This document shows, one piece after another, positions 46,714 through 50,039 of a stretch of DNA of 64,000 nt. A program made the position numbers and the translations under genes. Source of the DNA: Hymenobacter sp. 15J16-1T3B (GTDB lineage Bacteria; Bacteroidota; Bacteroidia; Cytophagales; Hymenobacteraceae); the NCBI RefSeq assembly GCF_020711235.1, contig NZ_JAJFAV010000009.1:1-64000 (forward strand). The letters are read 5' to 3'. Within the stretch, counting starts at the first letter, position 1. Every line of letters begins with the position of its first letter. The notes beneath the pieces are model-generated. The model saw nothing but the letters and a program-made list of their open reading frames with translations. It was not told where the DNA came from and did no database searches.

Positions 46714-46763
46714 CAGCTTGACTTTTGCGGCCCGCTGTGGGCCTTGTTTTTACGCCTCGTGCC

Positions 46764-48326
46764 ATGCACCACCTTAGCGAACAGGAAATCATTCGCCGCA
46801 ACAAGCTCGACGAGCTGCAGAAGCTCGGCATCGAGCCCTACCCGTCGGAGCTGTTCGACGTGACCTTCTACGCCCAGGAGATTCACGACAACTACCACCC
46901 CGAGCTAAACAACTTTCAGGACGTGAGCCTGGCCGGCCGCCTGATGTCAATTCGCGTGAAGGGCAAGGCTTCGTTTGCCGAGCTGCAGGATGCCTCGGGC
47001 CGCATTCAGCTGTACATCAACCGCGACGAAATCTGCCCTGGCGAAGACAAGGAGCTCTACAACACCGTCTTCAAGAAGCTGGTGGACCTGGGCGACTTCG
47101 TGGGCGTGAAAGGCCACGTGTTCAAAACCATGGTGGGCGAAACGTCCGTGCACGTCACGGGCTTCACGCTGCTGAGCAAGGCCCTGCGCCCGTTGCCGGT
47201 GGTGAAGGAGCGCGTGGACGAGGCCACCGGTGAGAAAATCACCTACGATGCCTTTACCGACCCCGAGCAGCGATACCGCCAGCGCTACGTGGACTTAGTG
47301 GTGAACCCGCACGTGCGCGACGCCTTTGTGAAGCGCACCCAGCTGGTGCAGGCCATGCGCAATTACCTCAACGACAAAGGCTACTTGGAGGTGGAAACGC
47401 CCATCCTGCAGCCTTTGTACGGCGGGGCCGCCGCCCGCCCGTTCAAGACCCACCACAACACGCTGGACATGACGCTGTACTTGCGCATTGCCAACGAGCT
47501 GTATCTGAAGCGCCTCATCGTGGGCGGCTTCGACGGGGTGTACGAGTTCAGCAAGGACTTCCGCAACGAGGGCATGTCGCGCTTCCACAACCCGGAGTTC
47601 ACCCAGATGGAGCTGTACGTGGCCTACAAGGACTACTACTGGATGATGGATCTGGTGGAGGAAATGGTGGAGCGTGTGGCCCTGGCCCTGCACGGCAAAA
47701 CCGAAGTGCAGGTCGGCCCGAACGTCATCAACTTCCAGCGCCCCTGGAAGCGCTTCACCATGGCCGAGGCCATCGAGCACTACACCGGCTTCAACATCGA
47801 CGGCAAGAGCGAAGACGAGCTGCGTGCCGCCGCCAAGGACCTGAAAGTGGGCCTGGAGCCGAGCATGGGCAAGGCCAGAATCATCGACGAAATCTTCGGG
47901 GAGCACGTGGAGCCCAAGCTGATTCAGCCCACGTTCATCACCGACTACCCGGTGGAAATGTCGCCGCTGGCCAAGAAGCACCGCTCCAAGCCGGGCTTGG
48001 TGGAGCGCTTCGAAGCCATCTGCAACGGCAAGGAAATCTGCAACGCCTTCTCGGAGCTGAACGACCCCATCGACCAGCGCCAGCGCTTCGAAGACCAGCT
48101 GGAGCTGGGCAAGCGCGGCGACACCGAAGCCATGGTGCTCGACGAGGACTTCCTGCGCGCCCTGGAGTACGGCATGCCGCCTACGGCTGGCTTGGGCATT
48201 GGCATCGACCGCCTTTCGATGATCATGACCAACTCCAACTCCATCCAGGACGTGCTCTTTTTCCCGCAGATGAAGCCCGAACAGGCGGAAAAGAAAACCG
48301 AGAAGAGCGAAAAGCCGGTGGAATAG
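46764..48326 (+). CDS. lysS: Lysine--tRNA ligase (class II)
   Basis: Charges tRNA-Lys. 520 residues. The N-terminal OB-fold anticodon domain is at ~60-150 ([22 protein letters not shown]). The class II catalytic core has motif 2 [20 protein letters not shown] from about residue 266 and motif 3 [12 protein letters not shown] near 475. A Lys/Glu-rich tail of ~15 residues is added at the C-terminus. The ATG at 46764 is preferred; a longer frame overlaps the promoter box. Followed directly by a 36-bp hairpin. Confidence 0.96.
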
Positions 48327-48402
48327 CTGCCTTGCTTTAAAAGCCAAAACGCCCCGCCGGTGGAGTCACCGGCGGGGCGTTTTGGCTTTTAAAGCAAGGC
48401 AG
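48327..48402 (+). terminator. 36-bp perfect hairpin directly after lysS
   Basis: Arms 48327-48362 and 48367-48402 are exact complements around a GAGT tetraloop, beginning at the base after the lysS stop codon. Internal AAAACGCCCCGCCGG / GGCGGGGCGTTTT gives a classical bidirectional terminator core; the outer ~14 bp are unusual extra pairing. Confidence 0.85.
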
Positions 48403-48429: not shown

Positions 48430-48687
48430 GTCGAAAGCCCCTCGTGCTAATAACGTGCACGGGGGGCTTTCTTCTATTAATCAGTTAACCATTCCAGTCA
48501 GTACACATCGGAGAAATGTGCGATGGACAAGTGCGATTTTGCTGCGAGGTTGTTTGACCAGATCCTTGCAGAAGCTCCACCGTCGGCAATTTTACTCCAA
48601 AGGTTTATCCGACCTTCTTACTAAACTGATTACACTGTCTTTAACGGCCGCATTACGAGAAGGTTACGCAGCCGGAAGTTTTTTTTT
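48430..48687 (+). repeat. Structured tandem element, unit 1
   Basis: Starts with a 15-bp hairpin (48433-48447 with 48457-48471, one G-U) and ends with an imperfect hairpin (GGCCGCATTAC ... GTTACGCAGCC) followed by nine T. Aligned to unit 2 at offsets of 299 to 307 with only small indels. Open frames are poor, so a non-coding RNA is the favoured reading; strand is inferred from the terminal T-run. Confidence 0.55.
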
Positions 48688-48728
48688 GTTTGCGTCCGGC
48701 AGCGGTGTGCTGCCTTTGAACCCAAAAA

Positions 48729-48989
48729 GTCGAAAGGCCTCGCACCAGCATTGACGGGTACGAGGCCTTTCTTTGAGAAACTGTCTGTAGCTAATTCAAC
48801 TGCTTGAAAAGCCGAAGAAGCTTACCAGAAATCAGGTTGATTTTGCTGACACGGTTGTTAAACCAATCCGTACAGAAGCTCAACTCGTTGGCAATTTTGC
48901 TTCGGAGTACAAATGCAGTGATTTGTCTAAGGCAATTTCTACTCTCCTTAACGGCCGCGTTACAGGAAGGTTACGCAGCCGGCAATTTT
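48729..48989 (+). repeat. Structured tandem element, unit 2
   Basis: Second copy of the element. The leading hairpin keeps its position but changes sequence on both arms (GAAAGGCCTCG / CGAGGCCTTTC), a compensatory pattern. Shared blocks with unit 1 include GATTTTGCTG, CAGAAGCTC, GGCAATTTT and the 3' TTAACGGCCGC...GGTTACGCAGCCGG followed by a T-run. Confidence 0.55.
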
Positions 48990-48990
48990 T

Positions 48991-49452
48991 TTAGCTGCCG
49001 ACGCCACTACCGCCGGTCGTTCCGCCGGTACCAGCCGCATCCTCGGGGCTGCCGGTGCCTTGCGAATACGTAGCCGTCGAGGCGGAATCAGGGCCGTCGA
49101 CGGGACCGGAACCAGACGACGAGCCGTTGCCCGAGGTTTTGCGGCCTCCGCCGCCTTTGCTACCGGTGCTTTTGCCGCTGCTGCTGCCAAGGCCCGCCAG
49201 GGCGTCTTCGGCCCCCGAGCGGTCGGCGTTGTCGCCTTCGCCGCTGCCGCTGGCGCCCCCTTTAAGGGCATCGAGCTTGGAGAGGCCGTCTTGCAGGAGC
49301 TTGTTGAGGTCGTCGCCGAATTTGCCGAGCGACTTGCCCCAGTTTTCGCGGGTGGCCGTGCCGGTTTCGGGGGCCATCAGCAGGCCGGCTACGATGCCGG
49401 CGCTGGCACCGGCCAGCAGGGCGAGAAGTACTTTACCGCTGTTGTCTTTCAT
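48991..49452 (-). CDS. YtxH-domain protein with Gly/Ser-rich tail
   Basis: A 153-residue protein. Residues 5-35 (GKVLLALLAGASAGIVAGLL then APETGTATR) form the YtxH glycine-zipper membrane helix. An amphipathic stretch (GKFGDDLNKLLQDGLSKLDAL) follows, then ~85 residues of Gly/Ser/Asp low complexity. YtxH proteins are stress-linked in other phyla. A paralogue lies 150 bases upstream on the same strand with a nearly identical N-terminus. Confidence 0.75.
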   Translation of the reverse strand: MKDNSGKVLLALLAGASAGIVAGLLMAPETGTATRENWGKSLGKFGDDLNKLLQDGLSKLDALKGGASGSGEGDNADRSGAEDALAGLGSSSGKSTGSKGGGGRKTSGNGSSSGSGPVDGPDSASTATYSQGTGSPEDAAGTGGTTGGSGVGS

Positions 49453-49546
49453 AACAAGCTAGATGAGTTTGGATGTGGGGGAAGAATGCAGGTGGCCGCC
49501 GGGGCCGGTAGTTGCTAACGATAATGTGCAGGGAAAGTTATCATGC

Positions 49547-49604: not shown

Positions 49605-50039
49605 CTACAGGTCGTTGAGCAGTTTCACGATTTCGCGCTTGCCTTTGCCGAGCTTCTCCTGCAGGCGGCCCACCAGTTCGTCGGCGGCGCCTTCGGAGTA
49701 CTCCAGGTCTTCGTCGGTGAGCTGGGCGTACTGCTGCTTCAGCTTGCCTTTCGACTCGTTCCAGTCGCCCTTCAGGTTCAGGCTGGAACCGGCACCGGTC
49801 ACGCCCAGGTCTTCCAGTTTCTCCACGAGGGTCTTGAACGAACCGTCGAGCTGGGTGCCGAATTTGTTCAGCTGCTCGCCCAGTTGGTCGCCGTATTTGC
49901 CGGCGTAGTTTTTCAGGTTGCCGCGGGTGGCGCTGCCCTTGTCGGGAGCGATGAGCAGACCGGCTACGATACCAGCGCTGGCGCCGGCCAGCAGGGCCAG
50001 CAGGACTTTGCCCGTGTTGTTGTCTTCGTTGTAAGACAT
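49605..50039 (-). CDS. YtxH-CsbD fusion protein
   Basis: A 144-residue protein joining two stress-associated modules. Residues ~9-40 are a YtxH helix almost identical to the neighbouring paralogue (GKVLLALLAGASAGIVAGLL). After an amphipathic linker (40-80), residues ~88-140 read GDWNESKGKLKQQYAQLTDE onward with EGAADELVGRLQEKLGKGK, a CsbD-like domain. CsbD proteins belong to general stress regulons; a membrane-tethered role in envelope stress is plausible. Confidence 0.78.
   Translation of the reverse strand: MSYNEDNNTGKVLLALLAGASAGIVAGLLIAPDKGSATRGNLKNYAGKYGDQLGEQLNKFGTQLDGSFKTLVEKLEDLGVTGAGSSLNLKGDWNESKGKLKQQYAQLTDEDLEYSEGAADELVGRLQEKLGKGKREIVKLLNDL

Follow-up and report, generated by a model that had tools for sequence, protein, structure and literature searches.

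Enterobacterial sRNAs such as MicA, RybB and MicL depend on ECF sigma factors, which use promoters of the type AAC-N16-CGT, and the sigma-E-dependent sRNAs of enterobacteria pair with target mRNAs. OmrA and OmrB are tandem paralogous sRNAs, and both alternative-sigma promoters and tandem paralogues are common among antisense sRNAs. Bacillus has two paralogues of 6S RNA. Hymenobacter as a group is noted for radiation and desiccation tolerance. Within the Bacteroidetes, a CGT box at -10 has been reported as an ECF signature in Flavobacterium, and the sRNA Rfp18 is required for normal protease mRNA levels (PMC9723704). The literature searched contained almost nothing on regulatory RNAs in Hymenobacter and no description of an RNA such as the one presented here.

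We analysed a window of 64,000 nucleotides from Hymenobacter sp. 15J16-1T3B (contig NZ_JAJFAV010000009.1, positions 1 to 64,000), in which comparison of the sequence with itself resolved positions 48430-48992 into two diverged copies of one unit. Both are paralogous genes, on the minus strand, of a non-coding RNA that stands alone and has a predicted length of about 215-225 nt. The features of the locus are as follows.

46725..48326, plus strand: lysS (lysyl-tRNA synthetase), convergent neighbour (Pfam tRNA-synt_2; synteny in relatives); the coordinates are those of a mechanical ORF, and the true start possibly lies further in
48433..48471, minus strand: putative terminator hairpin of RNA 1 (15-nt arms, 93% complementary; GACATTTAC next on the minus strand)
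48477..48635, minus strand: rod-shaped body of RNA 1, the copy beside lysS (covariance model 146 bits, E 3.4e-31; MFE z -4.2; covariation, 83 homologues)
about 48640 to 48425, minus strand: predicted transcript of RNA 1
48640..48667, minus strand: putative promoter of RNA 1, GTAACCTT-N13-CGTTAAA (pattern match with 0 mismatches; A-tract upstream at 48679-48687)
48732..48771, minus strand: putative terminator hairpin of RNA 2 (15-nt arms, 93% complementary; GACTTTTTGGG next on the minus strand; kept in homologues)
48777..48941, minus strand: rod-shaped body of RNA 2, the copy beside ytxH (covariance model 100 bits, E 1.3e-20; MFE z -5.6)
about 48946 to 48724, minus strand: predicted transcript of RNA 2
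48947..48974, minus strand: putative promoter of RNA 2, GTAACCTT-N13-CGTTAAG (pattern match and logo; A-tract upstream at 48986-48992)
48991..49452, minus strand: ytxH (YtxH-like protein), the next gene upstream, same strand (Pfam YtxH, 41.3 bits against a cut-off of 37.5; synteny in relatives)
49516..49539, minus strand: putative ytxH promoter of the same type, AACTTT-N13-CGTTA, 63 bases before the start codon

The copies align as direct repeats at offsets of 304-307 with 72-88% identity, and copy 2 was recovered with copy 1 as the query (E=1.6e-13), a similarity far above chance in the 6.3 Mb genome; beyond the two units, a search of that genome for further copies returned only a chance 22-base match. 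The tandem duplication reported in a preliminary description of this DNA is thus present, and its placement beside lysS and stress-protein genes agrees with the Pfam matches and synteny. A tree of the units shows the duplication to be old, since within each genus copies at the same position mostly group together across genomes; support at its deepest nodes is poor. The window also holds a second YtxH gene (49605-50039), in which a YtxH domain is followed by a CsbD domain, both stress-protein families. On the other flank, the lysS stop codon is immediately followed by a perfect inverted repeat of 36 bp around a loop of 4 bases (48327-48402), and unrelated long palindromes occupy the same place in relatives (L007 2090-2200, L009 1030-1140, L010 1000-1110 and L011 1790-1880), as though the point after lysS attracted palindromic elements of the REP/MITE kind.

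The architecture of the unit, taken from an alignment of 33 units from 19 loci, makes sense on the minus strand only. Read in that direction, an A/T tract is followed by GTAACCTT, 13 unconserved bases, CGTTAAAG, the body of ~160 nt and a GC-rich hairpin. On the minus strand of the homologue alignment G-U pairs outnumber A-C pairs 199 to 32, a bias that only the RNA strand should show and that settles the strand; consensus-fold energies by themselves gave no verdict (-98.9 versus -96.3). An RNA on the plus strand was rejected, being contradicted by these counts, by the direction of the promoter and by isolated copies of the unit. The preliminary description had read the units in the opposite sense, and its strand and boundaries therefore need correction: each RNA lies on the minus strand and points from the T-run block to the hairpin, which forms its 3' end, and the T-run block is the promoter. 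Its observation that both units carry a hairpin whose arms differ yet still pair stands, but these hairpins are 3' terminators and not 5' elements.

In both copies the RNA body folds into one long, irregular, bulged hairpin, or rod, of ~160 nt, and minus-strand folding is far better than that of shuffled sequences (z -4.2 for RNA 1 and -5.6 for RNA 2). Covariation was counted on an alignment of 83 distinct homologues fitted to the first covariance model. There, 94.0% of pair cells were standard, compared with 30-45% when partners were slid by 1-3 columns; both sides had changed in 24/34 pairs, and compensatory cells numbered 485 versus 141 in shuffles, none of which equalled the observed values. 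The same rod emerged from a sequence-only MAFFT alignment of the 33 units from 19 loci, made before any covariance model. The consensus has a basal helix of about 9 bp, followed by several internal loops with covarying helix between them. Two of the internal loops are invariant, each with GyAAAAU opposite AGCUUC, and are placed in reversed orientation along the rod; the invariant sequence sits in the apical half. Helices hold 23/38 of the columns conserved at >=95%, and some unpaired stretches are fully conserved as well, among them AAAAU and portions of the strand CCAUCGCA.

Shape and length near those of 6S RNA raise the possibility that this is a lineage-specific 6S-like RNA, a rod mimicking an open promoter and binding RNA polymerase. 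The two paralogues, as in Bacillus, would fit, as would the apparent lack of 6S RNA in the genus: neither RF00013 nor RF01685 detected one in the 8 genomes of the genus, although RF00013 gave hits in 6 control genomes and RF01685 did so elsewhere in the class, in other families. The 6S RNA of these 8 genomes has either been lost or has diverged beyond recognition. The likeness to 6S and 6S-Flavo RNAs nevertheless ends at a rod-like non-coding RNA of similar size. No model matched in either direction, neither the 6S models to the RNA nor the covariance model of the RNA to three 6S-Flavo loci; the basal stem is short, there is no single large central bubble, the invariant internal loops are apical, and an ECF-type promoter would be an unusual form of control for 6S RNA. 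The sister genera also lack the RNA. We consider a 6S-like identity improbable.

Upstream of the body, the two conserved boxes at a fixed distance with a free spacer led us to read the end block as a promoter. In the logo, the A/T tract and the GTAACCTT and CGTTAAAGA boxes approach 2 bits per base, and most of the spacer is near zero. The boxes occur in 82/84 homologue copies at either of two adjacent spacings, with AAC at -35 and CGT at -10 separated by about 16 bases, and the arrangement GTAACCTT-N13-CGTTAAAG, with its AAC motif and CGT box, appears ECF-sigma-like. The upstream A-tract would be an UP element. The block GGCCGC...GCAGCC with its T-run, described earlier as a terminator-like hairpin, exists as such; the fixed 13-base spacing and unconserved spacer identify it as the minus-strand promoter instead. 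The boxes could alternatively be the operator of another regulator, as TAAC and GTTA form a short dyad. At the other end, a hairpin occupies the terminator position in 84/84 homologues, and the next 12 nt contain 5.2 T on average. The terminator hairpin of RNA 1 may double as a lysS terminator from the opposite strand.

The pattern AACYTT-N13-CGTTA has exactly three exact sites in the genome, those of RNA 1, RNA 2 and ytxH, so that the set appears confined to one locus; upstream of the second YtxH gene in the window it is absent. The ytxH site lies 62-64 bases ahead of the start codon in relatives of the same genus. Many ytxH genes of a second genus have a CGTTA-type box at looser spacing, and the case for co-regulation is therefore strongest in the own genus. 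Because ytxH carries the same promoter type there, the RNAs and ytxH are probably switched on together, presumably by one alternative (ECF-type) sigma factor that would act on a separate promoter for each RNA. Searches for a wider regulon returned the exact promoter pattern elsewhere at about background numbers. We note that AACTTT-N13-CGTTA precedes a sucA-like gene in 3/8 genomes of the genus (L040, L041 and L062), not including the genome of the window.

A coding interpretation, with either a short protein gene or a degenerating pseudogene on the plus strand, derives from the final 17 codons, which align in frame between the two copies in the window; the preliminary description had kept coding as an alternative. 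The peptide block concerned, LSLTAALxEGYAAGxFF, is the conserved promoter in translation. Stop codons interrupt this frame in relatives, where its open length upstream ranges from 5 to 73 codons and neither ORF nor length is conserved. There was no Pfam match, and the likelihood of a coding unit is negligible. Known RNA families were likewise not recovered, as neither the window stretch nor any of the 19 homologous loci reached the gathering score of an Rfam 15 family. Low-score Rfam listings (miRNA, Thr_leader and others) were set aside as chance, most falling on the post-lysS palindrome or other hairpins. The best reading of the sequence is that the RNA represents a previously undescribed, lineage-specific family. 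The core of the preliminary description, a novel family of structured non-coding RNA in tandem paralogues under selection for structure, is in this respect upheld by the covariation, the homologues and the lack of a conserved ORF.

Nearly all of the Hymenobacter examined have conserved the RNA. The covariance-model search that had been proposed for the two units detected it in 119/200 genomes of the family and in 3/6 genera, comprising all 8 genomes of the own genus, 109 of the second genus and 2 of a third. Among named relatives, a conserved core pattern matched Hymenobacter species as well as Solirubrum. The RNA was not found in 23 further sister-genus genomes searched with laxer filters, nor, under strict filters, outside the family in samples of 291 genomes of the order and 395 of the class. 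Several candidate matches were discarded as chance: those of the first DNA search (L027-L032), and a single viral-contig match together with DNA-pattern matches beyond the Hymenobacter group, which had chance-level scores with the covariance model. A plasmid or phage origin found no match.

Homologues nearly always lie between ytxH and lysS. Since in nearly all genomes the unit follows ytxH in the same direction and converges on lysS, it might be processed from the ytxH 3' UTR or be an element antisense to lysS. Conserved promoter-like boxes and a terminator belong to each copy, however, and in the two third-genus genomes the unit lies between unrelated genes with neither lysS nor ytxH nearby, which makes this origin very improbable. 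These occurrences also answer the earlier concern that homologues might be confined to the one locus. The isolated third-genus units keep both the boxes (GTAACCC...CGTTAAAG) and the terminator hairpin, so promoter, rod and terminator constitute one self-contained gene. Compensatory change, strand bias, promoter and terminator signals of its own, the lack of an ORF and the presence of the unit in another context together characterize a standalone structured RNA gene.

Our preferred reading, held with moderate confidence, is that these tandem standalone RNA genes have ECF-type promoters, are probably stress-induced and more likely act by binding protein than as antisense RNAs. We infer ECF-sigma control, induction under stress and action in trans. 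Each transcript would fold into one long bulged rod and stop at the GC-rich terminator, and under stress the rod would most likely bind a protein partner, which may be dimeric, instead of pairing with mRNAs. Protein binding is favoured by the invariance of residues in helices as well as in loops and by the two opposed copies of the loop motif; from these features we judge it slightly better than an even prospect, and mRNA pairing a distinctly weaker one. Two copies of the RNA would, speculatively, provide dosage or slight specialization.

Trans-acting antisense sRNAs, whose conserved unpaired bases pair with mRNAs and whose rod is mainly stabilizing, are the main rival, one that we regard as less likely but deserving of attention. 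Alternative-sigma-type promoters and tandem paralogues, common in such sRNAs, are both present here, the fully conserved unpaired stretches named above could serve for pairing, and the action of Rfp18 on protease mRNA levels gives a precedent in the Bacteroidetes (PMC9723704). Yet most columns conserved at >=95% are helical, and the whole rod is under compensatory change, beyond the need of a seed-based sRNA. Comparison with described sRNAs is similarly divided. The RNA resembles MicA, RybB and MicL as a standalone sRNA with its own terminator, an apparent ECF-type promoter and an envelope or stress context, but has no sequence relation to them; they have a seed and short stem-loops, whereas the RNA here is a long covarying rod, lineage-specific to Hymenobacter relatives and with ECF control deduced from its promoter sequence. 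It shares with OmrA and OmrB an arrangement of adjacent paralogues, separately transcribed (here by prediction), and differs in sequence, structure and host. Conserved structured sRNAs of Bacteroidetes also include Rfp18 and further flavobacterial sRNAs (PMC9723704); these belong to another bacterial group, and Rfp18 was compared by description and not by sequence.

Returning to protein binding, a bolder version of the preferred reading, for which we see an outside chance, is that the rod with its two opposed loop motifs would represent a new RNA class that docks a protein dimer, which might come from a sigma/anti-sigma system or from RNA polymerase, and would form the non-coding arm of a one-locus ECF-type stress regulon. 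Whatever its partner, the RNA combines unusually clean covariation with presence in nearly every Hymenobacter-group genome checked, and brings a ready hypothesis, that an ECF sigma factor would co-control two RNAs and a YtxH protein. It provides a well-defined and testable starting point for work on stress regulation in the Hymenobacter group, where no 6S RNA is recognizable in the genomes of the genus searched.
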